A stretch of DNA of 64,000 nt. Origin: Loxodes magnus (lineage: Eukaryota > Ciliophora > Karyorelictea > Loxodida > Loxodidae). Location of the stretch: NCBI GenBank assembly GCA_946699065.1, contig CAMPDV010000040.1:1-64000 (forward strand), in the 5' to 3' direction. The position numbers were made by a program, and so were the translations under genes. Under the pieces are notes generated by a model, which was not told the origin of the DNA, ran no database searches, and saw nothing but the letters and a program-made list of their open reading frames with translations. Of the stretch, positions 7,474 through 55,807 are shown piece by piece. Numbering within the stretch: position 1 is the stretch's first letter; every line of letters starts with the position of its first letter.

Positions 7474-8319
7474 AAATTTTATTTTAAAGTAAATTCTCTA
7501 AACTTCTATTTATTATTTTCAAAGGATATTTAAAAGATTAAACGAAAATAAATTTTTTGTATTCTTAAATTTAATTTTTATTACAATTTATTTATAAAGT
7601 TATATTCTAGACTAATTAAATATTGCTGTATAATTATTTATTAACCTATAAGCTTATTTTAGAATTATATTTATTTTTTATTTAAATTTTACATTAATAA
7701 TCTACTTTGTGTGTTAGAAAAACTTAGAGCCATAGAGCTATTGAGCATTCTATTGATAGAAGCAACAAGAATGTTCAAGTTGTTTTTTGAACAAGTAGGA
7801 ACTACTATTTATAATTAATTTGTATTACGTAATCATAAGCTTCAAATCCATATATGAACTGGATAATATTCAAACTGTGCTCACTTAAAGATTTTGGATT
7901 AAAAAAATGAATTTTTCAAAGATAAAGAGATAACTTAATATTATAATTTTATGTCATATTCCCTAACGAAATACTCAAAATATAACTATATTATATTTTT
8001 GATGCCAAAAAAATGGAAAAAATAAATCGGAAATAATTTTACTACGAGAAACGTAGAAAACAGATTGATTCATATTACAATATTAATTTCAGAATTTTAC
8101 AGCTGAATAAATAAAATAAGAGCAACTGATTAAATAATATTTAGTTTACATAAAGAAGCCAAGAGATTTAAGAATAATAAGTATAATCTAATGTAAATCT
8201 ATTATAAATATGAAGATTTAAAAAAAAATTATTAAATTAGCCAAGAAAATATTTATTTTCCAAGATCAGCATCATTTCTTTTCATTTGCAATCAATAAAT
8301 AAAATTTCAAAGCTTAGAT
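7474..8319. other. AT-rich spacer, possibly further LINE remnants
   Basis: AT-rich sequence between the pseudogene and the recognisable LINE fragment. The fragment could extend upstream into it, but I cannot align it by eye. Confidence 0.4.
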
Positions 8320-8960
8320 TAAATTTAGCAACTATAAGATAGCTATAATATATATTAGAGAACTCCTAGAACAATATCACCCTAAAAACGTTTACTAAAC
8401 ATATAAGAGTAAAAAGCTACATTATTTCTATAATGTAGCTACTCTAAAATTTAAAACAATTAAATCAGTTAGAACATATGCTGGGTAATTTGTTAATCTT
8501 TAACAATTTCCACAAATTACTTAATGAAGTTAAACAAATAATATAAGACAAGAATTTATCATTATATATAAACTTAGAATATAGATCTATAATTTTTGGA
8601 AGGATCTTCAAGATCGTCATTATCATATTGATAATTCCTTTTTTACATAATTATTGCATGATTTTTTTAAGAAAATCTAAAAACATATACACTATTCTAA
8701 TATAAGAGAATGTCTATCAAAAAAGATTGAGAATTAAGACTTAAGGCCTTTTACTATATGATCAAGGAAATATCGGATCATTTTCAAATCTTAATTGGAT
8801 TAGCTTTAAATAAAAAAATTTCTCAGAAAGCTAATGTCAAGAAAAAAAATTATTGGAAAGAGATAAAGCTTAAAAGAAAGAAGAAATGGAAATTAAAAAA
8901 AGTAATTGAAAGATGATTAAAAAAATGATTTTAAAAAATTTAAAAAAAGATTAATAAAAA
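8320..8960 (+). mobile_element. Decayed 3' fragment of a LINE retrotransposon
   Basis: At nucleotide level this stretch matches the 3' part of ORF2 of the intact LINE at 14.7-18.4 kb, in the opposite orientation. Shared blocks include gtttactaaacat, atctttaacaatttccacaa, aggatcttcaagatcgtcat and cttaaggcc...tatacgatcaag-like sequence. The reading frame is broken and the C-terminal zinc motif is not intact (only one cysteine of its C-x2-C pair survives), so the copy is dead. It does not end in an (AAT)n tail; a G+C-richer block follows directly. Both the 5' truncation and the divergence fit an old insertion. Confidence 0.7.
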
Positions 8961-9260
8961 TTTTAAGAATAATTGAAAAGATGGTGGGAGCTGAGAGAAT
9001 GACCTTCGTGACGACACTTTCTGATTTTTTGGCTAGGAACAAGTTCCTTTCCTGTCGCTGAGAAAGTCCCTGGTCAGAGTCATTTTCTGAAGGGAACACT
9101 GTCTTTGAGATTATCCGATCTTGGTAGGGGTTTGAAACCTAGCTGCTCATAGCGATGGAGCTCCCTAGCAGCTGAATCTGGAGCACAACAGGATATCCCC
9201 GTTATTCCATAAAAAGAGAGCGTCGGGTCGTGCAATCGTAAAGGAGTTTCCGGTCCAAAA
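8961..9260 (-). CDS. G+C-rich island with a minus-strand open frame (element relic)
   Basis: This island of roughly 45-50% G+C stands out from flanks that are about 80% AT. On the minus strand one frame is fully open and reads MEQRGYPVVLQIQLLGSS, then PYQDRIISKTVFPSENDSDQ, then GLSQRQERNLFLAKKSES. The QDRII...ENDSDQ portion resembles the end of the minus-strand frame at the window start, suggesting a shared element family. A 7-bp perfect hairpin (agctgct/agcagct, about 9,140-9,175) lies inside. I considered a structured RNA but found no family signature. Function is unknown. Confidence 0.3.
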
Positions 9261-10458
9261 ACTTGTTTAGTTGAAATTAATTAATTAATTAAAAATTTTA
9301 AGAATAAAAAAGCTAATTAATTAAGGAATTTTTAAATAATATTTTTAGATTTTATTTAATTTAAATCTTAATTAAAACTTAAAAGATTTATGGTTTTGTA
9401 GTTTTTCTTACTAAAAATTGCAAAAAAGGAATAATAATTTTTAAATATAATTAACAATAAAATTTTATTTTATCTTTTAATTAAATAAATTGATTTTACT
9501 GTATAATAAAAATAAGTAATAAGAGTATTACTTAATTTTGCTAATATTAATATTTAAAAAATAAATAATTAATTATTCTTACTTTTATTATTTAAATCTC
9601 ATTGATAAAATAAATATTCTTAGAATGTTTCAAAGAGTATTTTAGGATTAGGTAAAAGTTTAAAAATAAACATTAAATATAGCTATTAATATATTATAAG
9701 TAACTTTATTCTTTATTTTATCAAAATAAATAAAAAATAAGTATTTTTAATATGATTAATCTGAGAAAATTAAGATATATATATCAATGAATATCTATTT
9801 TTATTTATACTTATAAAAAAATTATGATATATATTATCTAAACATAGAGAATTATCGAATAAAATTATATTATATAAATAAGTTTTTTGAACAAAAAATT
9901 TCGATAATAAATTTAATTAGATAAAAGTTAATATTTTTATATTAAGTTTTATAATTTAATAAGATACAAATAAAAGAAACAATTTTTATTTTACTTATCT
10001 TAGTAATAAAAATAATAATTTTAAATGATAAATATCATAATTAAGTAAAGTGTATATATTAACTTTCTCCCTATTTATTAAAATAATACCTTTTTATATA
10101 TAAAATATTAAATATAGCATCATCAGCATCTCTCTAATAAGAATTCGAGTAAGATAATTAATCCAATCTCAATTTATTTATGAAAAATATTTAAATATAA
10201 GTTCTTAAATTTGCTTTTATTAATAAAATAAAAGAAAAATTATAAAAATAAAAATAAAAAAATTAAAAATATTAATAAATATCAAATATCTTAATTTTTT
10301 AAATGGTATAAATTTTTGGATTTAATTAATTTCATATTTTTTAACAAAAATAAACCTTTTGAAAAGAACAACTATAAATGCTCGAAAAATGTTTTTATTA
10401 AGTTTAACTTACTTAAAATAATTTAAAATTTAAAAAAATATAATTTAAAAAGAAAAAA
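9261..10458. other. Extremely AT-rich spacer
   Basis: About 1.2 kb of nearly pure A/T sequence without recognisable genes. It shows short palindromic TTAATTAATTAA stretches at its left end. Confidence 0.6.
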
Positions 10459-11274
10459 ATGGATTAATCTCTTCGACTCTCAAAGAATTAACTTAAAAAC
10501 TTAAAGAGAAAAGCGGCAAAAGAAATTTAAAAAAAAAAATAGCAATGAGAGGAGTCAAATTCGTCATCAGAAGGTAAAGTGATGGTAGGACCTATAGAAA
10601 TAAGATAACCTAAGAACGAAGTTAATCAAAAACTTTAAATTTAATTAGATCAAATGTAAAAATTAATTAAAAATATGAAGAAGCAGCTTATAACTAAGGA
10701 GAAAAAATAAGGGAATTAATGAATAGATTAGAAGATTAAAACAACGAATTATTAATACTCAGAAGAAAGCTCATTCAAAGCAATTTGATAACGGAAGAAC
10801 AACTCTGAATTTAGTCAAAATAAAATTTTAGATATAATAAGAAAATGGAAATAGAAAAAGCACCAATATACTCAAAAGTAGAATAAAATCCAGGAAAAAA
10901 ATGAATCGTTATGAACTTCATTTAAAGATTAGAAAAAAAAGAAAATAAACTATCGATAAAAAGAACGAAATAAAAACGTTAAATAATCTGTGCTGATATT
11001 GCAAATCAAATAATCATTTAAAAGGAAACTGCTGATAATGAAAAGAATAAACGAATAAGAGAAGAAAAGAACATGAAAAATATTTAAAAAAACTATGGAT
11101 AACGCAAACTGGGATTTATAAATAAAAAATCGTCACTAGACCAAATTGAAATCTAATGTGGTAACCTCCCAATTTCAAAAAAAATCGTGGAACACACCCT
11201 CGTTTAAAAAAATGTCTGCAGGAACTGATTGAAATTCCAATAATGCAAAATCTTAATTACTTTAAGTATATTAC
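10459..11274 (+). pseudogene. Second gag-like ORF with CCHC zinc knuckle, runs into the (ATT)n tract
   Basis: From the ATG at 10459 a plus-strand frame gives a basic Gln/Lys/Asn-rich protein (MDQSLRLSKNQLKNLKRKAA...). After about 530 bases the knuckle CWYCKSNNHLKGNC appears in a different frame at 10,991, so the copy is frameshifted or spliced. The knuckle and the following residues (NCWQWK...TWKIFKK) resemble the copy at 4.3 kb (NCFQFQ...QWENIFR). Its frame continues without a stop directly into the (ATT)n tract at 11,275, where it would encode poly-Tyr. This is probably a disrupted retroelement ORF1. Confidence 0.5.
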
Positions 11275-14660
<3,386 letters not shown>

Positions 14661-14765: not shown

Positions 14766-17700
14766 TCATTTTTCTTTAATTAGTTCTTCTTTCTATTCAT
14801 CTTTAGCTTCTTTCTTTTTTGCTTTCTCCATTTCTAGAATCTCAAGTCTCCTTGTCATTAGCTTCTTATGAAATATTTTGATCTATAAGTCTAAATACTC
14901 CAATTTAGACCTTGAAAATGAGTTTAGATATTCTTGATCGTATAGTATAAGGCGCCTTAAGTCATAATTTCCGATATTTTCCGATAATCAATTCATTATA
15001 TTAGAATAGTACACACATTTAAAGATATGCTCGAAAGTTTCATACTCTCCACACATACAATAGGGATTATCAATGGGGTAATGACGATCTTAAAGATCCT
15101 TACGGAAATTATAAGTTTAGGTTCTAAGTTTATATATACTGATAATTTCTCGTCTATACTATTTGTTTAATTTAGTATAAGTAATTTGTGGAAATTGTTA
15201 AAGATTACCAAATTATTCAGTATATACTCTAGCTGTTTTCATCCTCATAAATTTTTTAGTAGCTACTTTGTAGAAATATTGTTGTATTTTTTCTCTTACA
15301 TGTTTAGTAAAAGTTTTAAGATTGGTATTATTCTATTAATTCTGCAGATCGATATTATAAAGGTCTGATAATTGCTACACTTAATCGTAGTATTGAAATC
15401 CTTTTTTCCATATATTAATGAAAAGAGAGCCTATTGTTGATCTTGGAAAATCAGTACTTTCTTATTTAATTTTATGGTAGAATCTGAAGAATTTTATAGC
15501 CATAATGTGCTTAAAGGGTAATCAATTCAGGTCTATATAACATGATTCATTAAATGTTGAAGTTGCTACTTAAAAAGCTTTTCTTGAAATTAATCTCATG
15601 CTTGATTCTATTCTGTTCAGAACTCCAGTTACTCCTTTTTGAATACTTCATGGTACTAAGTCTCCTCCATATTCTGCTTTAGGTAATGTAAAAAGTCTAC
15701 ATAAAGTTTTAAAATGTCAAGGAGTTACATTCTTATATCTCATCAGTTAAAAAACAGCTTTCTTCATTGCAGCTATATACTTGAATGCAGTTTCTTTGCA
15801 ATGGGGATTTAAGTTCTTCTTCTAATGTAGAATAACTCCTAAATATGTTACTTGTTCTTTTTAAGCAATTGGCTAATTTTCTAATCATAAATTTAAAATT
15901 TATTATTTCTGATTCTTCTTTAGAAATTAGATGCATTCGGATTTGGTAACATTAATCTTTAAATGTATTCATGCAAAAACTTTATTTGCTTCATTTATTA
16001 AATTCTACATCTACTTTGCAGATTTGGAAAGAAGAATAAGATCATCTGCCCATCCTCTACAAGCGAAGCTAATACTTGAATCCTGGCATTTAAATCCCAA
16101 TTAGTTACTTTTACTTTCCAGATATCTAATTACTATGTCATAATACAATAATGCTAAAACTGGTCCATGAGAACTTCCTTACATAACTCCATTGTTGAAT
16201 TATAAAGTTCTGGTGCTCTTACCATCTATGATAAATGAAGAATTTAGGTTTTTATAAAACGATTCTAAGGCTATTATTATTCCAAGTGGTAGTTTAACTC
16301 TCTTAAGTTAATCAAACAAGAGTCTTCTTTCTATTGAGTCAAACATTTTTTCAACGTCTATCAGTGTTGCTATCAATTTAGTCTTACCTTTAGCACATTT
16401 CCGATAGTTATCAATTATTTGTTATATTATTCAAATTTATTAAGTTGTTTATCTGTTTTTCATAAATCCCATTTATGAAGGGTGAATCAAATTTCTCTAA
16501 TAAATCAGATTGTATAATCTTTTTGTTAAAGCTTTATCATATAGTTTTAGAATAGTATTAATAAGAGAAATAGGTCGTCAGTTTTTCCAATCATCTTTAT
16601 TTCCTTTTTTAAATATTGGAATTATCACCGATATATTTAATTCCTAAGGGATTCTTCCAAGTCTTAGCATATTATTCAGAAAAGAATGAAGAATTATTAA
16701 TAAATATTATCCACCATATTTCAGAAGTTCGCCTTTTATTCCATCTGGACCAGCTGCTTTTCCATTCGGAATTTCTTTTATAATTTCTTAGATTTCTTTT
16801 ATGGTAAAAAGATCAAATCCTTACAAATACGAGAGTGGATAATCTTTAATTTCTTAAATATTATCGTATATTTTATCTATTTTTTAATTACTAAGATTTA
16901 TCTATTCTTGAGTTAGATTATAATGCTTGTTAAAAACACAATTTTCCCATGATTCAATTAATTTATTTTTGATTTCTTAATTAAAGTTCATAGTATTTCT
17001 CTTCAAAGGATTTAAAATTTTCTTAGCCTGTGAAAAAATTTCCCTAGAATCTCCATTAAGAAGTAGAAATTTCTTTTTTGCTTTGTTTTTTTTAAATTTT
17101 CATAGATTATACTTGAAGTCTTTCCAAAGTCGTTTTGCTTCCTCATGAAGATTAGTTACTTGCTAGTTTATTCTTCCAAATCTTACGTGAGCTTCCTTAT
17201 ATTCTGAGTTAGTTCTTTTTGCCTCTATATATTTCTTTGTGAGAGCTCGAGGAAGTTTGTTATAATTTGAATCTGGAATAAACGAACCTAATGTTTGATC
17301 AGCATTGTCTTAAATATTACTTTTGATGCATTCATATTAATCTTCAAGATTATCTTAATCTATTTAAAAGAATTCTAGATAAGTTTGTAGGAAAGATTCT
17401 TAATATTTTTATCTATCTATTGCATCTTATAACCTATTTATTTTATATTTTCTCTGAGTTATCTTTTCCCAATATACTATAGAATTATTGATAAAGTCGA
17501 CAGTGATTGGAATATGATCAGAAAATAAACTATTATTATGAGCAGTGAAATTTGCAAACTAATTAACGTTCAAATGGTTGTTTATAATGATATAATCATT
17601 ACAATACGTTTTTCCTGTTCCTTTGTGAATACATGTATTAATGTTGCTATCATTCACTATCTCAAGATCGTTTTATAGTAAGAATTCTTATAGTCTAATG

Positions 17701-18443
17701 TTATTATCATAAGCATTTTCAGGATTATCACCGAAGCCTTATAAAAGAGCATTGAAATCTCCCATTAGTATATGTGGATTATCATTATATAAATTCAGCA
17801 ATGTATTTAGTTGTTCATAAGCTAAATCTTTAACATCTTAACTTTTTCCATTATCAGGCATGTAACAAGACGTGATTAAAATATTATCCAGTTTAATTGC
17901 TATGAATCTATTTATTTCTTTTTCAACTTATATATGTATTTCTGTACTATTAAATTCTTCTCCTACAATTAAGCATACACCTCCTCCTTTTCCTGAGTTC
18001 TTAAAATATGTTTTAAATCCATTTATCAATATTGGAGGAAAGTCATCTTTTTATCAGGTTTCGTTTATTGATAAAATATCTATACTGTTATCTCTGATAA
18101 ATTCTTCAATATTCAAGCACTTGCTCGCTATTCCATTAATATTTATATGTCCCATCTTTATTTTTTAAATTTATTAGTCCTTTCTAATTTTTTCCGAGCC
18201 TGCAGATAGACCACTTTCGTAAATGCAAATGCTTTTCTATCCTTATTGGTTAATCTAAATATGTACTAATCTTTTTCCATACTCAGGATGTTAATGAAAA
18301 TATTGTATCAAAATATATATTACTTACGTCGTATATTTTTTAAGTAGCTTTCTATCTATATCAATTTTACTTTTCACACTATCACATGTACCTTATTCTA
18401 AATCTTAAGTAACTGTGACATATCTACCTTATATATTGTGCAT
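14766..18443 (-). CDS. LINE ORF2: endonuclease / reverse transcriptase
   Basis: A 1225-residue frame from the ATG at 18443 to tandem TGA TGA. It would nick target DNA and copy the element RNA by target-primed reverse transcription. The endonuclease begins near residue 97 (MGHININGIASK) with NETW near 125, GDFN at 229-232 and SDH at 308-310. In the reverse transcriptase, GKAAGPDGI precedes NWRPISLIN; motif A LIDVEKMFDSIE has its Asp at 696, then motif B is GVMQGSSHGPVL and motif C is WADDLILLS at 798. The usual Y of YADD is replaced by W. The C-terminal zinc motif is CMCGEYETFEHIFKC from 1129. Trp in ETW and in NWRP is encoded by TGA, yet the end is TGA. I chose the ATG 15 bases after an in-frame TGA that may stop ORF1; reading through that TGA as Trp is an alternative. 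Confidence 0.88.
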
Positions 18444-18461
18444 TTCGTACTATGGACGTCT

Positions 18462-20406
18462 TCAAGTTTCGGATTTAATAAACTTTTAAAGTTATAGACT
18501 AGTCAGATTGAAATAACATATTATTTAATCGCACTCTTTTTTATTATTATGTTTACTCATACGTTTTGCTGGCGGAATTGTTTTATCTTCTTCTTCATGT
18601 TTCCTTTTAAGAATATTAAGATTAATATTGGAAGATAAGGTTTAATTCTGATAAATAGCATCGATCGAATCTGTTTAGTTTTATTAATCTTTTTTCATCT
18701 TTTAGTAGAATAATTAAATATATCTTTTTTCAAATTTTAATTAAGTTTTTAAAACTCTTCTATTTTTATATCAAGTGTCTACTATATTTTGGGTATTTTA
18801 AATGAATTTTAAGTTGAGTTAGTGATATTAATGCTATAGTAAAACAAAATCTTCATCTGACAATTTAATTTGACAGTATTAGTTATTATGTTATGTTATA
18901 ATAGTATTAGTTGATGATTCCTATTAATTATTTTAAGTTTACATTAACTTGTCTTGCTTGATTATATTTGTTTGAGTAAATTTTTGACACAAAAAAGCTG
19001 TTTATTATTTATTTATATTATCTGTTTAGATAATACTATCTTTTGTTTAAATATTTCCATATAATGTCTAAGCTTATGCATCTACAAATTACTTCTTCTA
19101 AAATTACTATTAATTACTAATTTCTTTTTGTATGTTAGATTTAATTCTAAAATAATTCTTTATACATTTGAATTTCCTTATTTTTTAATAGAATTTAATT
19201 TTGAAAAGCTATATTTATTTCATATTTTTATTATCTTTACTTATCTAATTCGATTTTAAAAGTTAAAATTTCCATTTAATCTTTCTATTCTTAATCTATA
19301 AATTACTTATTTTAGTTTTATAATTTTTAATATTAAGAATATAACTCTTGGAGTTAAATTTCGGTTATTATTTTTTATTAGGTAATTTGTTGAAGTAAAT
19401 ATTAGTTCTATTCTAATATAGTCTATTGATATCCTTGCTAAGTTTTATTTAGAAAGTTATCTATTTCAATTTAAGTAAAATTTTTAATTTTATTAAAGTT
19501 TTGGCATAGTGAATTATTTGCTCCTATCATTTAAGCTTAAGTAAAGCTTTAATTAGCATTGGCTTCAATTTGAATCTCTTAATTAGATTATATTTCATCT
19601 TTTGAATTGACTTAATTCTCATAGTTTTTCTATTATATCTAAATTTCTTGAACTATACTAATTATTTCATCTGTTTAAACTATTTAGTTACTGTAATAAG
19701 TGGAGAAGTTTGTTTAAGTAATTTTATGAACTAGTTATTTTGATAGCATTTTTTTGTGATATTGCTATATATCAGATTTGATTGACTAAAAATAGTTCTA
19801 TAATAGTTTATATTTCTAATAAATTTTATTTATATAAGTTTTATAATATATTTTGGATATTTCTTAGTTACTTATCAATTTTTCAATATCTCGTTTATAT
19901 TTTGCTTTTATATTAATTAGCATTTCATTTAATTATTGGTTCTTATCTATAATTCTTTATATATTATGTTTAAATTCTTTTATTTCTAAGGTAAATAAAT
20001 TCTCATTAGACTAATTAATTATTTGATTTTATATTACATTTCTTAAATCAGCAGTTTAATTTTAAGGTTGTTTTCTCTGAAGATCAGGTAAATAATGATT
20101 ATTTGAATTATCAGGATTAGTAATATTATTTTATTTCTGATTAATTTCGTTATTTGAAATTTAATAGAATTGTTAATTAGTATTATTCAAAAATGAATCT
20201 TAAGTTTATGTTATTTTTGACTACCATAAAAGGATATCTTTATTTGAATTTTAATTAGGATTTGAAGGTATTTCTTTTGAATTCTAACTATCTAAGATAA
20301 TATCTTATTTTTGGAAAGATTTCTTAGGTAATCGTTTCGTATCTTTCGCGGTATTATTTTAGGCGGTTAATCTGTTCATCTATTTATAGGTTGATTTCAC
20401 TTTCAT
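18462..20406 (-). CDS. LINE ORF1: Gln/Asn-rich nucleic-acid-binding-type protein
   Basis: The frame starts MKVKSTYKQMNRLTAQ at 20406 and encodes a strongly Gln/Asn-rich protein with coiled-coil-like segments, for example NLFTLEIKEFKHNIQRIIDK, and a basic patch IPPAKRMSKHNNKK near its end. The position, 5' of ORF2 in the same element, and the composition suit an RNA-binding ORF1. I see no zinc knuckle in it, unlike the gag-like relics at 4.3 and 11.0 kb. The frame changes once between about 19,170 and 19,110. Downstream reading (QKEISNQQQFQKKQFVDAQA) is in frame with ORF2, so a one-base shift or error separates the halves. It probably ends at the TGA at 18,464-18,462, which could instead be read as Trp to give an ORF1-ORF2 fusion. 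Confidence 0.65.
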
Positions 20407-20679: not shown

Positions 20680-27398
<6,719 letters not shown>

Positions 27399-43737: not shown

Positions 43738-46143
43738 TTTTATCAGAATATAGTAATTTTCTTTTAATTAATTAATCTCAAATTTATATAAAGGAATACT
43801 TATCACTATATCTATTGCTATATTATGAAATTCAATCTTCTAATAGATCTCTTTACTTCTTTATGCTTCTGCTATCCCTATACTTTCCAACTTAAACAGT
43901 TAAGTAATCAAATTTATTTTATTAAAGAAAGCAAATTTTAGATAAAATTACTTATAATCGCTTAAGCAACTTTTAGATAATCTTCAGGACTAACAATGAT
44001 CTTTATCTATTTAAGATATAGTAGAAATTATTTCTTTAGCGAGCTCAATATTTTCTAATTTAATAGCATATAGAAAGTGTAGAAGTAAGCATACAGTTAG
44101 AAGTATACAATGCTCTATTAGCAAATCAATAAATTTACTTTAAAAAGAATGTAATTTAAGATATTCAAAACAAGACTTAATGTTCTATATGAAAGCCTTT
44201 CAACTTTTTTAAGTTAATATGTTTGAGTCCTCCCTTTATATCACTTTAGTTATTATTTAACGTGCTAAAAATACTAGTTTCCTTTATTGAAATGTTAGAT
44301 TTATATTATAATGCTAACTTATAAATACTATCCTTTATATATTCATCTCAAATGAATACTAGTCATTAATCCTTTAATTAATGCTATCTATTTAAATTCA
44401 TAGTACCTTTGCTTAAATTATAGCTATCCTATTGGGGGTCTATACTTAAATTACCTTTTATATAAATGCTTTTGTTTCTTAGAATATTAACAGATTAGCA
44501 TTAAAATAAGTAATGTTGATAAATAAATTTATATTATAGCAGCTTATAGTGATGCATTTAGTCAGTCTATAGTCTAAATGAATACTAGCCCTTTAACTCC
44601 TAATCAGCCATATAGTTACTTATAGGTTTAATATTAATTTGATATAAAATCATACAAGTTTAATTATGCCAAACTATCAAAGTATTATAGTTTAAGTATT
44701 TTAATCTTATTTTAGACTAAAGCCACATAAAAATATACTAGAAGCTTATTTAACTGTTTTTACTAACTTTAAAGCAAATAAATTTCATCTCTATCTCTTT
44801 TTCTTTAGTCGTTTATATAAAATTTCCTTCTAACAAAGTTAATTCCATGATAGTGCGCAAATGATTGTAAAGCTATATAGCACTCTTTTAATAATATAGC
44901 AAAAGTGTTTTGGCTTTATTAGCTAGATAAATGATTAATATCAAATACCAAATATAAGCAGCCTATATTTAGCTAGGCATTACTATAAACTATCTTAATT
45001 ACATATTTCATAAGCTTCTTGGTTTATTTCTTCACACTGTGTTACACTTAACCTCACTTCATCGTATCTTTTAGACTGATATATTCTATGAAATATAAAA
45101 AGTTATAAATTAAATAGAAAATAAGCTAATTAGAGCGCAGAACTATATATCAGCTTATTATTAAAATCATTTTTACCTTTAGTCTTAAAAGCGAGGCTGA
45201 ATGCTTTTTTAATATCAAAGTGAACTTATCATTTAAGAAATGATAGGAAATAAGTATTACTTTTATAAGCTACAAAGAAGGAAAAAGATCAAATACATTT
45301 TCAATAATCAATAATAATAAGCTTATCTTTTCATTTTACTAGTATAGCTACATCCAATGCTATCCCAATTTAAAAATAAAAAGAGAGAAATGAATAATAA
45401 ATATGTAAATAAAGATTGGTAGTCAAGTATTCCATTAGATAAAATTAATTATTAACTATTAATGAACATTTAAACTTGCTAGCTAATTTTGTTTTTAATT
45501 ATAACTTTCAAATAAAAAGACATTTTAAATTCTAAACTAAGCAAAGATAATACCACTAAAAATTTTTCATATGCAACGCTTTTTTCAAGTTGCTCATAGC
45601 CATAAATTTAAAAGGAAGAAATAAAAAAAATAGATTAAGTGTTAATGATGGTATATTTGGCTGAATTTATACTTATGTATATTTTTAGATTAAACTATCA
45701 ATCATAAAATTCCATAGTATCAGTAGATTTTGTGAATATCAACTTGATGCTAGTTACTAATTAGTAAAACTTTATATATTTATTGTTTTAATCCGAAGAC
45801 CAAGATTCAGGAGTTCTTATGGACTATATTGCCATCTAATCTTTGGCCATATAAGATCTAGTGAATATTAAGTATAAATATTAACCAGTTTAGTTAGGAT
45901 TTAACTAGATAATTTTAGTTTAGTACCTTCAGAAAGCAAGTAAATACTTCTAAGAATATCAATGCAATGCAAACTAAGTTAACAAACTTAACTCTATTCT
46001 AATACAATAATTAAGCAAAAAAGGGAGATATGAAGCATGTTGGAGTATAAAGATTGAAAGCAACAAGGTTAGTGGAAAGAATAAGAAGCTATAATTATAA
46101 TGGATAGTAATATTTAGCAATTTTTTAAATTAACTATAACATA
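43738..46143. other. 2.4-kb region without a recognised gene
   Basis: The first 600 bases on the minus strand are open in frame with TXNDC9 and read as helical sequence (for example AIKLENIELAKEIISTISQI), which could be part of an unrecognised gene. In-frame TGA is only mildly depleted, so I do not call it. The rest shows nothing. Confidence 0.35.
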
Positions 46144-48694
46144 ATGGGTAAAAAATCCTATATAACTGCAACTCAGTTAGAATTTCCTCTTAAGTCTATT
46201 TCTACTTTAAATGATCTTGCTGCTATTGCAAGTCCTAAGGGACTGTTCACTGTTGATCTTAACAAAATTTAGAATGTCCTTAATATCAGCAAAACTTCTT
46301 ACTCTTTAGTAAAATTTTGGGTAAAAACGGAAAATGCTTAGATTATTAGAAATAGCTTTAATTTCGGGAATTAAGGGAATGAGATACCTCACCTTGCTTG
46401 TGTAGATAATAAGATTTGCGATATTTATCAGAACGCTTAAAAGACTAATTCTTTAGAGATTCATAGAAGAACTATTACAGACGTTGACTGGCAGAGTAGC
46501 CATATTTTGGCAACAAGTAGTGCGGATACAACTATTTAGATCTGAGATTTAAGAGAGCCCAATTGTCCTAATGGAATTCAAGGAACTAAAGGTTTAAGTG
46601 TTAATTGCGTTAAATGGAGCAGTAATGACGAAAATATAATAGCAGCTGCTTAGGGTAAAACGTTAGTTTTATATGATATAAGAAAAACTTTGAAATCACT
46701 TTCTCGTGCTAGAGAACATAGCGGAGTTATTACTTCAATTGATTTTTCTCCTTCTAACAAAATTCTTACATCTGGTGATGATGGTTACCTTAAGTTATGG
46801 AATGCATCTAACATGCTACAGAAGATTTCTGAAACTAAAATAGATAACGGCATTGTAAAATCCCTTTTTATACCTAATTCTGATTACCTAGTTTTTATTT
46901 GTAAAAACGATATGAAAGTGATAAGATGCTCATTTTCTTAAGATTAGCAAATTTAGTTTAGCAAAACATTTGAAGGACATACTGGAAATCCAATTGACAT
47001 TTGCTTGAGGCATAAAATGGATTAGCATATAGAATTAGTAAGCATCAGCGATAACCAAGAAATTAGACTTTGGAACAATGATAAAGAATAGCAATCTAAC
47101 TAGACACGAAAAGGAGAAAGTCCTAGAAGTGCTATTAAACCAAGTCCTTATGATAGTTCAACGGATCTTGAAAACTAATTTAACATCTTAGAGTAACTTT
47201 TTTACGGAAAAGTTTAGTTTGAGAAGGACTGCTAAGGAAGAAAATTGACAGCAATATTCCAAAACCAGAATATAAGCTACAGAATCCTTCTCTCTTTCCC
47301 TACAATGTATCCTTATAAAGAATCTGCCAAATTTACCACTATATCCCATAATTCTTTTTCAGAGATAGATTTGAACGAGATTCACAGCAAAGTTAACAAT
47401 TTATTATAATAAGATAGAACATAATCAGTCAAATAAGTAATAGAGTTCATTTTAGAAAAAATTGAGAAAAAGATTTAAAGTGTTTTTTTACCAGATCCAG
47501 AACCACCATTTAGAATTGATGATCCTGATGATCCACCAAATCCGGATAATACCTCAAAGAAGAAATACACACCAGTTCCAAGAACAACGCTATTCTGCTG
47601 AAGTCCTCAAGGTACTTTATTATGAATAAATGCGGCAGAAAAGAATAAGCATTAAACCAGTGAATAGTTTGAATTAGAACTAGAAAATGAATTATAATTA
47701 GAATTTTTCTTTTCGGATTTTTACCAAAAGTAATGTTTCATTATAGAGAAAATGATTTTGAGACTATAAATAGTAGAAGCTACAATCCTGAAAAAACAAA
47801 AGTTGCTTTGCCAATGTATAAAATAATAAAGGTAAGATATAAATAGTAGACATATGATTTAAGTGAAGAGCAGTTGATTAATTTCAAATTAGCTTAGCTA
47901 CTAAAAGTTTCTAGCTCTTTTATGAAATCTTGCAAAGTAAGGACTAACTTTAGAGCAACCAAAAGAATTGTTTCAAAGTGTCTCAATATCATACCTCAGC
48001 CATTTATCAAATTTTGAGTTATGCCTTACCGTTGCTAGGATATTCTTAAGACTGAAGTCAGCATCCTAGCAAAAAAATTATTGATAGAATTCAAAGCGAA
48101 CTAATAGAAAAAAAAGATTTATAGAATTTAGCAGTTCTAAGTGCCTTCTTGTGCTAATTAGGTTTACCTTTATGCTAGGAAAATATCAAAAATAAAGAGT
48201 CAAAAGAAAACTCATAAAGTAGTAAGAAGTTTAAAAGCATATATCATTTGTGCGTTAAAACAGGCAAAAACTCTTAACCACAATAAAAGCTAATGCTAAG
48301 CGATAGTAACACCATAGTCTATTAAGATTTCATTAGTAGATTGTTTTGGATAAAGTAATATAGCGAAATTCTTTTCAGAATAGGACTTAATAATCAAGCA
48401 GTTTAACTTCTTTCAAGTTTAAACCAGAATTTAAATAAACTATAACCTTCTATATGTTAAGTATTGCTAAAATGCTTACCCAACTGTAATTTATACTATT
48501 CAGATTAATAAAATGCTTTATAAGAAAACGAAGGATACTTTGACTGTTCTTTATGCAACTAAACAGTTAAAGGAATTGTAATTTAGTGTAAAATCTGTAA
48601 ACATGGAGGCCATTTTTAACATATTTACAATTGGTTTAGTACTTAGAATGAATGTCCAAACGGATGTGGTTGCAAATGTATACCTAACTTATGA
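46144..48694 (+). CDS. WDR59: WDR59 orthologue, GATOR2 subunit, with three tiny introns
   Basis: 833 residues after removing introns at 47,730-47,746, 47,832-47,846 and 47,937-47,953. GATOR2 (yeast SEACAT; WDR59 is Sea3/Mtc5) relieves GATOR1 inhibition of TORC1 on lysosomes or vacuoles in response to amino acids. Residues 1-330 form a WD40 propeller (TDVDWQSSHILATSSADTTI, DFSPSNKILTSGDDGYLKLW). Residues about 345-445 form an RWD domain (NILEQLFYGKVQFEKD, PTMYPYKESAKF). A block matching the WDR59 middle follows (DWSQHPSKKIIDRIQSELIE, KDLQNLAVLSAFL). The C-terminus is a zinc RING-like module with CSLCNQTV, CKICKHGGH and NECPNGCGCKCIPNL before TGA. One WD-repeat Trp is a TGA codon. Human WDR59 is longer, 974 residues. 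Introns 1 and 3 are needed for the frame. Confidence 0.93.
47730..47746 (+). other. 17-base intron 1 of WDR59
   Basis: gtaatgtttcattatag. Its removal changes frame by two and joins SDFYQK to ENDFETINSRSYNP, giving a continuous protein. GT...AG ends are present. Confidence 0.8.
47832..47846 (+). other. 15-base candidate intron 2 of WDR59
   Basis: gtaagatataaatag is in frame (15 = 3 x 5), so removal is inferred from its likeness to introns 1 and 3. It joins MYKIIK to QTYDLSEEQL. Confidence 0.6.
47937..47953 (+). other. 17-base intron 3 of WDR59
   Basis: gtaaggactaactttag has a GTAAG donor, an internal CTAAC like a branch point, and a TTTAG acceptor. Removal restores the frame and joins SSFMKSCK to SNQKNCFKVSQYHTSAIYQI, the position of the conserved Cys-Asn helix of WDR59. 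Confidence 0.85.
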
Positions 48695-50399
48695 TTAACT
48701 TTTAATGATTTTTAATTTTAATTACGAAGATTAATAAAACTGATATAAGCATCATTATATCTAATCCCCACTCTATCAATCTCCTCTTAACTAATTCCTT
48801 TTGCTAAATAGAAAGTCTAGGATTATTCTCAAGCTTATAAATCATTAAGAGAAGAGGAATAAATTTTAGTTTTCTTATTTAGTTAAAGAATGTTCTCTTA
48901 ATAATTTTGAATTGGTTAGCTTATGAAATGTCAAAATATAAATTCTAACTAGCTAAACTATGCTAAATATCATCTATTTATAGTAATACAAGCAGCCAGT
49001 TTCATTAAGTATATTCATTTCTCTCTTCCTTCATACATTAATACGAAAAAGGTTAAATATAAAGTATAAGAGAAAATGAAGTTACTTCAGTTATTAAAGG
49101 TTAGTAACATCTAGTTAAAGTTAGGAATTAAAGGTGAGATATTAGAACTAAATTATCAATTAACTATACTCTTGACAAGTAAAATCTAAAATTAATTTGG
49201 AAAGAAAAGGTTTAAATGTATTAACTGCTTATAATTAATTTAATTCAATTCTGGTATCAAACTTTCAATATAAAAAAGGCTTCTTATAGATTATTTCTAG
49301 TAGTATTTTCAATTAAAGTCTAGACGATGATTATTTGTATTATCTAGTATATAGAGTAGAATAAGAGAGAGATGTATAAATTGCTTGTAAACTCCTATTC
49401 TTCTAAACTACTAAATCACACTTTATCCTAAAACTCTATCTCATTACTTTTTACTATAGTGCTTTTAACTTAGATAATACTACAACCAGGCTTATTTATA
49501 ATTGCATAATCTGGGGATTATAAAGTGATCAGAGATTTACAAAAGAAAATTGCTTGTTTTTAAGAAACTAAGGCCAGAAAAGAAAAATGCAATAGTGGAA
49601 TTAAAAGTTGAATGCCTATATTACTGCATACTAAACTGAAAGATAAGCTATAAATAATATTTAAAACAATTAAATAGGTAAAAAATAAGCAAATCATAAA
49701 ACCTTAACTTACAAAGTCTATTCTTTGGTATGAAGAACACTAGAAAGAAAATATCTAAGACTTGTTAATGATGTATTATAAGCTAGCTAAGTGTATTTAG
49801 TATTTAGCTTAGTAGTTATACTAACTAATTTATACATATTTGAATAAATCCATTACTGTGGATAGGACTTATAATCTTTTATTAACAACTATCTTAGAAG
49901 TGTAAGTTATTTTAATATGCTTATAATCCAAATTGCATTCAAATAGCCAAAATCTTATCTTTATTAAACTTATAGAATTAAAATTTCCTCTGTAGGATAA
50001 ATACGAACAGCTATAGTAGAGATGGAAGCTTACAAAAAAGATTGTAAACTGAGGACATATTGTAGGGTAATTTGAAAGGCTAGATTATATAATTAAAGTT
50101 ATCTAATTTATCAGGAAAATGTCAACGTTAAGTATTGAAATTAATTAATTGAAAAGCTAACTTTAGTAAATAATAAAGCAAATTATACTCACTTCTGATA
50201 TACTTAATATCTCATCTTCCTCACTAAATATCACAAAACTATTCCTGCTTTGCAATCTTAGACTACATAAATAATAGAAAAGTTGAATAAAGGCTTGTAT
50301 AGGGTAGTGATTGATAAAGAGAGTATTTTAACAATTAGAATAAAAGTAATATAAACAGTAGAAAAAGAATTGGATGAAATAAATAATTTAAGTAGCTTA
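48695..50399. other. 1.7-kb intergenic region
   Basis: No recognised gene. The stretch just before 50,400 is open in frame with the SNARE gene but lacks family similarity. Confidence 0.45.
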
Positions 50400-51045
50400 A
50401 TGTCTGAATTTGATCTTTATGTTGAAGATTTCAATAAGTTAAAGGCCTCTATTAAAAGATAGCTCCAAGGTATGAAAGGCCTCAACTGAGAACGTAAAGA
50501 AAGCATGATCAATGAAGTTACTCATAGTCTTAACGAGGCTGATAAGTGTCTGAGGAATATGGAGAAAGAAATAGGAAATATGGACCCATAATCGCGATAA
50601 ATCAAGCAGAATAAGTTGAGGCAATTCAGAACTGAGCTTGATTAGCTGAAAACTGAATATTAGAAAGAACAGGTGGAGTAGAACTAGCAAAAACCAGTTA
50701 AGCAAACTGGAGGAAGGGATCAACTTATTTCTAATACGAATACTTTATCTAAGCAAGGAGATAAGCTTGAGAGTATTCACTAAATAGCTTTAGAAGCTGA
50801 AAGTTCTGGAGTGAATACTATGAATACTCTAAAACAGCAAAGAGAATAAATCTAAAGAATAGATTAAAAGGTAAGGATTTTTAATTCAGGTCACTGACAC
50901 TTCTTAAAATGCCTAAAAAGCGAATGTCATGCTAAATCAAATGACACGAAGAGAAATGTGCATTAAAGCTGGACTTTGTTGTGCTATCTTTTGCTTGATT
51001 ATTGCTAACATAGCAGCACTAGCTATTAAGGTTGGTGGAAAATGA
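50400..51045 (+). CDS. VTI1: VTI1-type Qb-SNARE
   Basis: 208 residues after removing a 19-base intron at 50,871-50,889. VTI1 proteins are tail-anchored Qb-SNAREs that drive fusion in Golgi, endosome and vacuole traffic. The N-terminal part (1-95) is a helical bundle (LYVEDFNKLKASIKRQLQG, INEVTHSLNEADKCLRNME). The SNARE motif spans about 122-182 (KLESIHQIALEAESSGVNTM, NTLKQQREQIQRIDQK, VTDTSQNAQKANVMLNQMTR) with Gln at the zero-layer region. It is followed by RREMCIK and one C-terminal transmembrane helix (AGLCCAIFCLIIANIAALAI), then a few residues and TGA. Without the intron the SNARE motif and the anchor are in different frames. The length matches the usual 210-230. Confidence 0.88.
50871..50889 (+). 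other. 19-base intron of the VTI1 gene
   Basis: gtaaggatttttaattcag. Removal (19 = 1 mod 3) fuses ...QRIDQK with VTDTSQNAQKAN, rejoining the SNARE helix and its membrane anchor in one frame. Confidence 0.85.
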
Positions 51046-51236
51046 ACTTCTTTATTCATTATTCTTATAAGCAAACAATTTTTGCAATCTCTGGTATAAA
51101 TTATTAATCTCCTTCATTCAATAAAAAAAGCATCAAATCTCTTCATAGCATTGCTAATATAAAAATATATCTTATAGTAATGATATATATAACACTCACA
51201 CTCTTTTATAAAGTAAACAAAATTAAAAGGTGTAAA

Positions 51237-52319
51237 ATGAATAAAGAATATAGATGGTACTAGGAGTATTTTGCTTTATTTAATTTGATAATAATTCCAC
51301 GTTTTTAATTATATAATATAATTAAATTAATGCAAGAAAGAAAGTAGAATTAATAGTCTAGTGATCTTTAAAAAAAGCAATAAATCTAATTCGCTGAAAA
51401 CAAAGTAGAGCCTTAATGGATATAAGACTCCTAAACTCAGGAATAATCAACTTCTACTGAATAAAAAGCTGAAGAAAAAACAGATGATTAAACTTAGTAG
51501 AAGCCAACATTTTTCGTAAGAAATAACAAAAAAAAGAATTCGATTCTCGCACAGATAGAAGGATATGAACTGCTATTAAAATAGAAATCTTTTAATCCAA
51601 CTCCAATCAAAACTCATAGCAGATTATTAAAGTACATATTTTTTATTATTGATATTTCCTTCTTGCTAACCTCATCAGCTAATGCAATTTACAGAATATA
51701 CCAGTTCATTTATAAATAATGTGATGAATCGAGTTCCATTAATCAAGATAGTAAATGAGATGGATGACTCCTTGTAGGACTTATATTCTCATGCTGATTC
51801 GCCTTTCTGATAAAATCTTGCATTTTGCTTTTTAGATGAAAATCGCATTTACTAATAAAACTTAAGCGTCATATATGGGAATTTTGCAAATGTATATTCT
51901 CATATTGCTATAGTTCACATCTATTACCAATCGTAATGATGGACTATGAAAAATGTCACTATAAAGATACTTTTTCATTCGACAACCTGGATTTGTTATA
52001 CATTTGCATTTTGGTATTGATTGCTGCTTGGATGTTATTTGTGTTTGTAATGGTTATTTTGTACATTGTAGGAATGAACTAAAGTAATTTTGCGGATCAG
52101 GTAAAATATAAGGAAATAATGTTGATATATTTCAGAATACAAATGACCTTAATTACCTTATGGAGTCTACTAGTCCTCGCTTCTATTTTGTAAATTTTTT
52201 TCCAAAATGACGCTCCTGCTCTCATCTATACTGAAATTATTGCTTCTACGTATTATGCTCTACTTTGCATCATTTTTTATATTTACTATAAAAAGCATGG
52301 ATCGAGTTATGTTGATTGA
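51237..52319 (+). CDS. Multispanning membrane protein of unknown function
   Basis: 360 residues, ATG at 51237 to TGA. The first 110 residues are hydrophilic and Gln/Glu-rich. At least five hydrophobic segments follow: about 133-155 (YIFFIIDISFLLTSSANAIY), 180-203 (WLLVGLIFSCWFAFLIKSCI), 258-285 (LYICILVLIAAWMLFVFVMV), 305-325 (TLITLWSLLVLASILQIFF) and 338-352 (YYALLCIIFYIYY). Four Trp codons are TGA, all in hydrophobic or aromatic contexts. No family recognised; no signal peptide is evident. It follows the VTI1 gene by 190 bases on the same strand, but no functional link is implied. Confidence 0.7.
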
Positions 52320-52783
52320 GTACTAACTTAAACATTAATTAGATTCATTACTTATCTTTAATATTTTCAATATATATCAATATTATTATCAATCATGCTG
52401 ACATATCTTTATACCATCACCTTTAAAGTACGCTATTGTATCAGTTAAGCATACCAAATTATAGAAATAGAAGTCATATATTTCCTTTCTCTCATGGGTT
52501 TAATATATCACCCAAAATAAGCAATGATAAGCTTTATCGCCTATAATGAAGCATCAACAAGCACGTAGTTATGAAAAAGGAAACCTATATTTTGTAACTT
52601 CTTAATTACTTTAAATTTAGTAGTTTAAAGCAAGTTTATATTTGATTAAACTTAGCAAAATAGCAAAGCTATGATATTAAAGAATTGATTAATTGAAATA
52701 AGGATAGTATAAGTTGAATTGCTTGGTAGAATAAAATAAAGGCTGTTTATAATAATTAAGTTTAGTAAAAGTTAGATTTAAAT
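52320..52783. other. Intergenic region
   Basis: Short spacer between two plus-strand genes. Nothing recognisable. Confidence 0.5.
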
Positions 52784-54574
52784 ATGCATAGAGCTCCTAA
52801 AGTTATGAATCGTTTTCTTGATTAGAAGTAAAAAGAGAAAGACTACGAAAGACATCGCATGAGAATGGTTAATATGAGGTCAGTTGTAGATGCTTCATGT
52901 CCCTCAACTCATAAACGAAGTTAATCAACAATTAGACATTCTAAACGTGAGGCGTTACAAGAGTAGAGATTCATTAACATAGAGAAAGAAAACAGACTTC
53001 TCTTGTAAAAAATGACTGAAATTATGATAAAAGAACCCACAAAATCCCTTCAAGGTAAACGAAAAAGCCTTAACAAGGATAAAAGAAAAAGAGATCTTGT
53101 AAGAATCACTTTAGAAAATCAAGCAATTCTTAATAGAATCGTTTCTTAGAAAGCTTAATATAGCAATGCAAAATGGGAAGAACAAAGAATAAAGGAAGAA
53201 AATCTTTTACATGGTCTTTGCTAGTACCCATATTAGCTAGGTAACACTAAAACCACCCATTAGCGCTCTTCTTATAAGTATATAAAGCCTTTGACTACAA
53301 GAAATGCAATATATCCAGGACCTTAGAACAAAACATTTGATTAGTTAGAGCCTGATAGAATAATAGTCTATAAAAAGACAAAGTAACTTTAAAATAATGA
53401 GTATTACCTAGTTGAAATAAGTAAATCGGAAACAACTATGCACTTTGTAGTTCATGATGTATAGAGGGGTAATTCTTATGTGCTAGAAGTACCAATAAAA
53501 CAAGCTGTCAGACTGCTAAATGATTTTGATCAATAATATGACGTTTTAGCTTCAAGACTTAAACTAGTAAATGGGCATCTTATTTTGATAGATAAAGATA
53601 AAGAAAAGCAAAAAGTATTCAGAACAACAGACTTTTAAAAGACCAAGAATTATTAATTAAGCAAAGATAAGTAAAAGTAAAATGAATAAGAACCTTAATC
53701 TACTACCTAAGAAGCGAAGACAAATAGTAATGGACTGAAATAATAAAATGAAGAGAACTAAGTTGATTATAAAAAGATTGACCAGTAATAAAGCTTGAAA
53801 GATAAGAATAAAAGTTAGTAAAAGGAAAGATTTAAGCAAAATGTCTTGGAATTTAACTCTGAGTCAAAGCAAGAAGGCTAAAAAGAAAGAAATATGAATA
53901 AAATAGAAGGATCAAATAAGGTTTAAGAAAATAAGATGAAACAAGAGAAAAAAAATGTATAGTAAAATAGTAATGAAAAAGATGCAGAGTAAAAAAATTA
54001 AAGAAATGGTTAGCTAGACACTGAAAATCAGCAAAGTGAGGAAAAATTAAATAATATAAAATAAAATGAAATGATATAAGATAAGGCAAAAGAAGAGTAG
54101 AAAAGTACAAATCTAATAATAATGGATGATAATGATGTTAGTAAATGTGTAATTAGATTGTGTAAAATGAATGATATTCAATATTCAGTACATTAAAGTC
54201 CTAATTTCGGAATTTAATTCAAAACCTTCCAACTTGATTAATGTGAAGCAGCACTTATCTATATTTCTTCAGTTCTTAACATAAAAAGTCATTTTTATCC
54301 GACTGATATTAAAATAAGAGCAGAAATTGACCAATTTTTTTCATGAAGCAATTCTCTAAAATAAAACCTAGAAAATAAAGAAAAACTGAGTGTATTCTTA
54401 AAATAACTAGATGATAGACTCAAGATAAATTCACTGTTCATAACAAGTCAAAATAGTTCAACAATAAGTGATATTTACGCGTTCTATCTAGTAGAAAAGA
54501 TAGGAGACATTTCTTCATATGAAAACATTGAAAAGTGGTTCGGTTCTATGAGAAGCGAATTTATGTAAAAATGA
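52784..54574 (+). CDS. CFAP97-family ciliary protein with a C-terminal GST-like domain
   Basis: 596 residues, ATG (MHRAPKVMNRFLDQKQKEKD) to TGA. Residues 1-125 match the CFAP97/hemingway domain: SKREALQEQRFINIEKENRL, LLQKMTEIM, RDLVRITLENQAILNRI. CFAP97-type proteins act in cilia and flagella. Residues about 135-290 contain an unrecognised conserved-looking block (YYLVEISKSETTMHFVVHDV, VPIKQAVRLLNDFDQQYDVL). Residues about 290-440 are a low-complexity Gln/Lys/Asn linker. Residues about 445-590 resemble a GST C-terminal fold of the EF1-gamma/AIMP type (CEAALIYISSVLNIKSHFYP, IRAEIDQFFSW, SDIYAFYLVEKIGDISSYEN, WFGSMRSEF). Trp 521, at the usual conserved Trp, is TGA. There is no in-frame TGA between the two domains, which supports a single fused gene. 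The GST-like assignment is less certain than CFAP97. Confidence 0.75.
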
Positions 54575-55004
54575 TTAAATTAAATTGAGTTTATATATAA
54601 CAGCTTATAAAATCATTTCACTTGATCTCACTGTAAATAAAATCAGGTTTTCGTCTAATTTATTAAAATCCTTCATACTCTAACATTATATTTGGTGCTA
54701 ATATTATTTTTTAGTTCAAGGCTAATATAATATATTTGAAAGTATTTAGAAATTCTATTTGTTGATTCATATCATATTCATTATATATGCTCTATTAAAT
54801 CTACTTCTTACAAAATTTTAGAAGTGAAATTTAAGAGGCTAGAGCAATAATACGTAACTTTTAAATTTTTATATTTTACTCTTTTTAGATGTAAGAAATG
54901 ACAAGTGAAAGGAAAAGGAAGGTTTAAATGCAAAAGATAGAAAGAGTTGATAGTACTTAAGTTCTAGAAAGGAAATATAACAATTATTAATTTGATATCA
55001 AAAT
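54575..55004. other. Intergenic region
   Basis: No gene recognised. Confidence 0.5.
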
Positions 55005-55807
55005 ATGGAAGAAGCATTTTAATGCTATTTTTGTAAAAACCGATATGATCAAGATGTACATGCCCCTATGACGCTTAATTGTGGACATTCCTTTTGTAAT
55101 TCTTGCATTTTTAGCAAAAAGTTTCAAGATACAAACTTAAGGTGTCCGATGTGTAGTAAAAATGACAGTTAGACTTATAGTTAAATGAGTAAAAATTTCA
55201 GTCTAATGCAAATTCTTCAAAACTTTAGCATTAATTCTTAGAATGGAGTGATTAATTAAAATTTAGAAACTTCAGAGTAGAATCCTTAGTAATAAAATTA
55301 ATAAATTGATAGCAATCAGAATTAGTAAGGCTTTATTGATATAGACTTTAATAAAATGAATAGAATGCTTAATAGTAGGAAGATAATGAAGAAATATTGT
55401 TCGAGGAAGAAAAGTTTGAGCGTCCAATTCCTCCTCAAACTATTTAAGCGTAATAACATCCTGTTTTTGACAACTAGGATCTATCCCCTCGATCATAATA
55501 ATTAATTACAGATGGTCATACAATGGAAGAAGTTTTACTATTCAAATAATAATTGGAAGACTCTAGCAGAGTAAAGGAACTAAAAAGACAAGAAGAATCT
55601 TAATAATAACATAGTTGATTGAGTCCTTAATCATTTTTTGGATAAAACTATGTAACTCCTAAATTTGGGATAACAGATAACCATTAAAAAGGTAATTTAT
55701 AAAATAATTAATCATTTGGTACTTAGGCTGTAGTAATCGAACTTCCTGAAGGATCTAGAAAATAAAATGTGAAAGACATGCATGGTTGTTGTTGCCTTAT
55801 ACAGTGA
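55005..55807 (+). CDS. RING-finger protein (probable E3 ubiquitin ligase) with a C-terminal CaaX-like motif
   Basis: 260 residues after removal of a 20-base intron at 55,325-55,344. The N-terminal RING-HC finger at residues 7-54 has all eight ligands in TRIM-like spacing: CYFC, TLNCGHSFCNSC and CPMC. The fold recruits E2 enzymes to transfer ubiquitin. The middle is Gln/Asn-rich, then acidic (EDNEEILFEEEKFERPIPPQ), with a short coiled coil (MEEVLLFKQQLEDSSRVKEL). The C-terminus reads ...KDMHGCCCLIQ then TGA. The last four residues CLIQ fit a CaaX prenylation box, and two more Cys directly upstream could be palmitoylated, suggesting membrane anchoring. Without the intron the second half is out of frame. 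Substrates unknown. Confidence 0.82.
55325..55344 (+). other. 20-base intron of the RING gene
   Basis: gtaaggctttattgatatag. Removal (2 mod 3) joins IDSNQN to QLQQNEQNAQQQEDNEEILF in one frame, continuing to the CaaX-like end. Confidence 0.8.

Follow-up and report, generated by a model that had tools for sequence, protein, structure and literature searches.

Short GTAA...AG segments that interrupt reading frames in a 64,000-nucleotide stretch of the karyorelict ciliate Loxodes magnus are very probably ordinary U2-type spliceosomal mini-introns. The window analyzed here (the whole stretch, G000:C40:1-64000) forms the start of the 1,214,766-base contig C40, and the segments lie on its plus strand within genes for a WDR59 protein, a VTI1-type SNARE, and a RING-finger protein. 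An initial annotation had proposed that four such segments (17, 17, 19, and 20 bases) must be removed to keep these genes in frame, and all four are in place, at 47730-47746, 47937-47953, 50871-50889, and 55325-55344. Their removal maintains frame and domain continuity, their ends are canonical, their lengths fall in the published range, and the same pattern is found on two further contigs. Our confidence in the mini-intron reading rests mostly on published work, because RNA sequencing (RNA-seq) of such introns in L. magnus is already in print.

The VTI1-type SNARE gene (50400..51045; PF05008, 70.8 bits) carries the putative 19-nucleotide intron GTAAGGATTTTTAATTCAG (50871..50889) within its SNARE motif. 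Removing it maintains the frame and extends the match to PF12352 (V-SNARE_C) from 32.4 bits (profile positions 3 to 46 of 66) to 42.2 bits (positions 3 to 65), and of 1,200 combinations of position and length near the site that give the required frame class, 50871-50889 is the only one with GT-AG ends. The joint codon score rises by only 1.5 nats upon removal (59.05 to 60.52), and it is homology that supports excision here. In the RING-finger protein gene (55005..55807; PF13445, 32.4 bits), the likely 20-nucleotide intron GTAAGGCTTTATTGATATAG (55325..55344) is indicated by frame and codon continuity only: the joint codon score increases from 35.6 to 56.1, the segment was picked by one of three intron-aware codon fits (the first), and Pfam detected no domain across the junction. 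The same gene contains a decoy, the 19-mer GTAATTCTTGCATTTTTAG (55096..55114, plus strand), which has the full GTAA...TTTAG signature and a typical length, yet codes for zinc-ligand cysteines within the PF13445 stretch (residues 7 to 48), so that its removal would break the RING domain. Because this segment carries the same signature, GTAA...AG ends are insufficient to call introns. For annotation, a locus that combines likely mini-introns with a look-alike to be kept means that the motif alone is unusable for intron calling.

The WDR59 (GATOR2) gene (45967..48694, plus strand) encodes WD40 repeats, an RWD-like part, and a C-terminal zinc-binding RING (PF00400, PF17120), and the human WDR59 chain 7uhy_D matches it in the same order, with two stretches significant. 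Two 17-nucleotide introns are proposed, GTAATGTTTCATTATAG (47730..47746), which is indicated by frame and was picked by all three intron-aware codon fits, and GTAAGGACTAACTTTAG (47937..47953), which carries a branch-like CTAAC ahead of TTTAG and is indicated by the downstream frame. The frame 3' of 47937-47953 is supported by zf-RING_16 and by one selected human WDR59 segment, and Pfam detected the zinc domain solely in the spliced reading. Searching the PDB with sequence from around the second exon, which follows 47730-47746, gave zero matches. Several results count against these exact sites. None of the three intron-aware fits picked 47937-47953, and the first gene finder took 48162-48178 instead; the codon model favors a later frame switch by about 13 nats, against which the selected human segment argues. 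Among 52 two-intron GT-AG solutions that were scored, the 47730/47937 pair ranks only 11th, and one-intron GT/GC-AG solutions (best 8 of 16) lie 1.2 to 3.3 nats above the pair under the intron-free model, though 1.1 to 2.4 nats below it under the retrained model. Apart from the pair, no two-intron combination has GTAA...YAG in each of its introns. WDR59 thus requires one or two introns, and the 47730/47937 pair is the most canonical choice among several rather than a unique one. The proposed need to remove all four segments thus holds for VTI1 through PF12352 and for the RING gene by frame alone, but does not extend to unique sites in WDR59.

The assembly used for the genome search comprises 705,730,643 bases in 7,843 contigs, and 20 stretches of 10 kb were sampled from contigs C1 to C19 and C40 at positions fixed before inspection. 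An intron-free gene finder, run on these stretches, predicted 114 genes outside the window. Its longest prediction is a repeat array and was skipped; Pfam was run on the 30 next longest and assigned a family to 15. Three of these, whose domains looked possibly truncated, were then translated in three frames, and two of them gave introns. In an aspartic protease gene (L018, contig C9, minus strand), removing segments of 19 (3463-3445), 17 (3303-3287, ending in AAG), and 16 (3058-3043) nucleotides raised the PF00026 match from 72.1 bits (positions 1 to 59 of 315) to 229.9 bits (positions 1 to 313); the latter half of the domain alone, in a separate predicted gene, scores 87.5 bits. In a kinase gene (L010, contig C1), the PF00069 match increased from 50.6 to 131.9 bits after removal of 19 nucleotides (2926-2944) lying inside the lysine codon of HRDLKPEN. 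The third, a Kelch gene (L023), showed no clear intron. In a further Pfam run, L023 gave only a weak EF-hand match and a possible RING-type gene (L024) matched no family; therefore, neither decides an intron. We also considered whether the 16-nucleotide protease segment is coding sequence, carrying a one-base frameshift, that had turned into an intron. In PDB searches, the spliced and frameshift readings each win for some chains; the frameshift idea was dropped because, by Pfam score, the spliced reading is roughly level with it or ahead (229.9 versus 227.1 bits).

Homology thus supports four introns outside the window (16, 17, 19, and 19 bases), and the eight listed introns (four in the window, three in L018, one in L010), a small and chosen sample, measure 16, 17, 17, 17, 19, 19, 19, and 20 bases. 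All eight have GT...AG ends; the sites were picked as GT-AG, and therefore the restored frame or domain is the real test. Detection by frame is blind to introns whose length is a multiple of three (3n). About 16 to 25 bases of pre-mRNA would hold the donor (GTAAG or GTAAT), a branch adenosine shortly before the intron's end, and an acceptor reading TAG or CAG, with AAG in one of the protease introns; excision by the spliceosome would keep the reading frame where TAA and TAG mean glutamine and TGA means tryptophan or stop. We infer that these individual segments are spliced, that an adenosine near the end serves as the branch point, and that the machinery is U2-type. By eye, an A stands 5 to 7 bases before the end in eight of eight listed introns, as A-rich DNA often gives. 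The initial annotation had pointed to CTAAC immediately before TTTAG in one segment, and the motif is present in 47937-47953; the loop in this 17-base intron would span about 10 nucleotides were branching to occur at the second A of CTAAC. In 16 to 17 bases, there is little space to recognize donor, branch, and acceptor separately.

Alternatively, the broken frames could stem from indels in the assembly or from pseudogenes, with the GTAA...AG segments matching by chance in coding DNA that is AT-rich. Look-alikes are indeed common: the three spliced coding sequences contain 14 GTAA..YAG pairings of 15 to 25 bases versus 9.5 (standard deviation [SD], 3.3) expected from codon shuffles, and codon statistics do not clearly single out GT-AG. 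The dinucleotide-pair, donor, motif-sweep, retrained-fit, and intron-free gene-finder runs were made without the eight loci from the genome search, and the comparison of retrained fits with eight scrambled motifs covered the window plus 19 stretches, L011 being the one of the 20 that was excluded. The sequence of this repeat-rich stretch (G000:C2:100001-110000) looks like one long gene packed with GTAA..AAG introns, which leads gene finding astray, and its repeat array spoiled the second of the three intron-aware fits. With GT-AG allowed, the first gene finder placed 10 introns in the window, 3 of which are among the four proposed initially. GTAA..YAG occurs in 2 of 14 high-gain clusters, whereas each of seven other motifs occurs in 0 or 1. 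Among 24 motif pairs, GTAA..TAG gained 30 nats per 1,000 candidates versus 0 to 7 for four donor rearrangements, and GTA..AG reached 5.8, versus 1.7 to 4.3 when the donor was rearranged in four ways and AG was kept, and at most 5.3 when rearranged donors were paired with GA. A wider sweep placed GTAA (acceptor TAG) third of 225 donors and TAG first of 60 acceptors by total gain, and the retrained fits gave 14 introns versus 5 to 10 for the scrambled motifs. Other outcomes of the same tests are unfavorable to a splicing signal: GT-AG ranked 23rd of 90 dinucleotide pairs and was not enriched, it ranked 166th with a rate under the mean in a second such test, and GTAA was absent from the enriched donors in the donor test. 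GTAAG..AG scored 5.0 in the 24-pair test, within the 0 to 8.3 of its four rearrangements; GTAA was only 13th by gain per candidate in the wider sweep; four of the eight scrambled-motif fits had higher total scores; and the 14 fitted introns include just three of the eight listed (47730, the kinase intron, and the 16-base protease intron). Codon-only tests therefore back the intron motif weakly, being mild and partly contrary, and a motif-blind proof of splicing by this route was set aside. What makes an origin in indels or pseudogenes very improbable is that the assembly was built from HiFi (circular consensus sequencing [CCS]) reads and polished with Racon (PMC11441545), that short GT-AG removals restore domains in four genes (WDR59, VTI1, the protease, and the kinase), and that three separate removals in the protease yield one near full-length domain.

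We give next to no credence to germline-type internally eliminated sequences (IESs) left in the assembly and excised at the DNA level. The host is a ciliate, and Paramecium is reported to have short IESs, whose lengths peak at about 26 to 28 bp. However, the segments carry splice-site ends and are present in an assembly of macronuclear (MAC) size, and introns of such length have been mapped from RNA in L. magnus (PMC11441545). DNA-level removal is unlikely because that study found no canonical IESs in this species. Mini-introns are thus very likely real in these genes and ordinary for L. magnus, as members of a class already published.

Two more in-frame segments, of 15 and 18 bases, had been proposed at the outset, with no coordinates given. 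The signature and the in-frame candidates are present: a GTAAG...TAG segment at 47832..47849 (plus strand) offers 15 (to 47846) or 18 nucleotides from a shared donor, and an alternative 18-nucleotide candidate with the GTAA...AG signature lies at 48486..48503 (plus strand); keeping or removing any of them leaves the frame intact. The 15-nucleotide form lies below the published range of L. magnus introns, in which those under 16 bp are negligible, and is unsupported. GTAA...YAG look-alikes of 3n length number 8 in the three spliced coding sequences, a count in which a shared donor can appear repeatedly; shuffling the codons gives 3.3 (SD, 1.8; P = 0.019), and this mild excess settles nothing for the 15- and 18-base candidates. 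We regard it as unlikely that 47832-47849 is an optional 3n mini-intron with one donor and two acceptors. If it were, optional splicing would produce WDR59 isoforms with the frame unchanged, and the 15-base form would take karyorelict splicing under the published 16-base floor.

Beyond these genes, Pfam was run on 19 further frames of the window and assigned a family to five, and an Rfam scan of the window gave zero matches at the gathering score. The window also contains two three-base arrays of about 99% purity (11269-14658, about 1,129 copies; 20690-27397, about 2,233 copies) and, at 14766-18698 on the minus strand, a long interspersed element (LINE)-type retrotransposon frame encoding both an endonuclease and a reverse transcriptase domain. 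Many closely similar WD40 repeats are clustered, among the matches listed, on contigs C1503, C119, C9, C620, C272, C1832, and C6957, and among the same matches their start points are often spaced by multiples of 126 bases (e.g., on C1503 and C119). One sampled stretch (L013, G000:C4:100001-110000) holds a single open frame at 6179-9337 on the minus strand, in which PF00365 (192 bits) is followed by PF00162 (477 bits); the stretch that joins the phosphofructokinase (PFK) and phosphoglycerate kinase (PGK) domains is free of TGA. The gene thus looks like a PFK-PGK fusion, and no title among the papers listed pointed to one.

The MAC assembly of L. magnus is described as 706 Mbp, including 231 Mbp of low-complexity tandem repeats, and its code as ambiguous, with TGA meaning tryptophan or stop (Seah et al. 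2024, PMC11441545). The window agrees with the karyorelict ambiguous code (NCBI table 27), with no difference seen: reading TAA and TAG as glutamine yields domain matches, and TGA stands both at conserved tryptophans and at a gene end. One TGA codes for tryptophan inside a WD-repeat signature, a second sits at a tryptophan that aligns with human WDR59, and a third serves as the WDR59 stop (48692-48694) after the zinc domain.

Heterotrichs (Stentor and Blepharisma), the sister group, have introns resembling those of the window in their GTAA...AG ends and very short lariat, but about 95% of them are 15 bp and the remainder 16 bp (as cited in PMC11441545), whereas seven of the eight introns listed here measure 17 to 20 bases and one measures 16. 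The problem of recognition in a tight space is common to both; for Stentor, whose commonest intron is GUAAUUUUUAUAUAG (PMC9505925, PMC9942806), conserved small nuclear RNAs, a tight loop of about 10 nucleotides, and altered branching factors possibly avoiding a clash with this loop are described, and on the recognition problem a conjecture is offered that awaits experiments (PMC9505925). Judged by title and the start of the abstract, none of the other papers listed on short introns or the introns of ciliates was recognizable as a further study in karyorelicts. The closest system is L. magnus itself, whose RNA-seq introns have a mean of 19.3 bp and a mode of 17 bp, with 93% at or below 25 bp and 3n lengths relatively depleted (PMC11441545). 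The initial observation is thus partly confirmed: miniature splicing does reach the karyorelict lineage, as has been in print since 2024 and is not new, and the suggested range of 15 to 20 bases has to start at the published floor of 16. In the code, the abundant low-complexity repeats, and the intron lengths, the window agrees with the published L. magnus genome, no other difference being found among the features compared, and the 16 to 20 bases measured in the window and elsewhere in the genome fall within the published 16 to 25, with its mode at 17.

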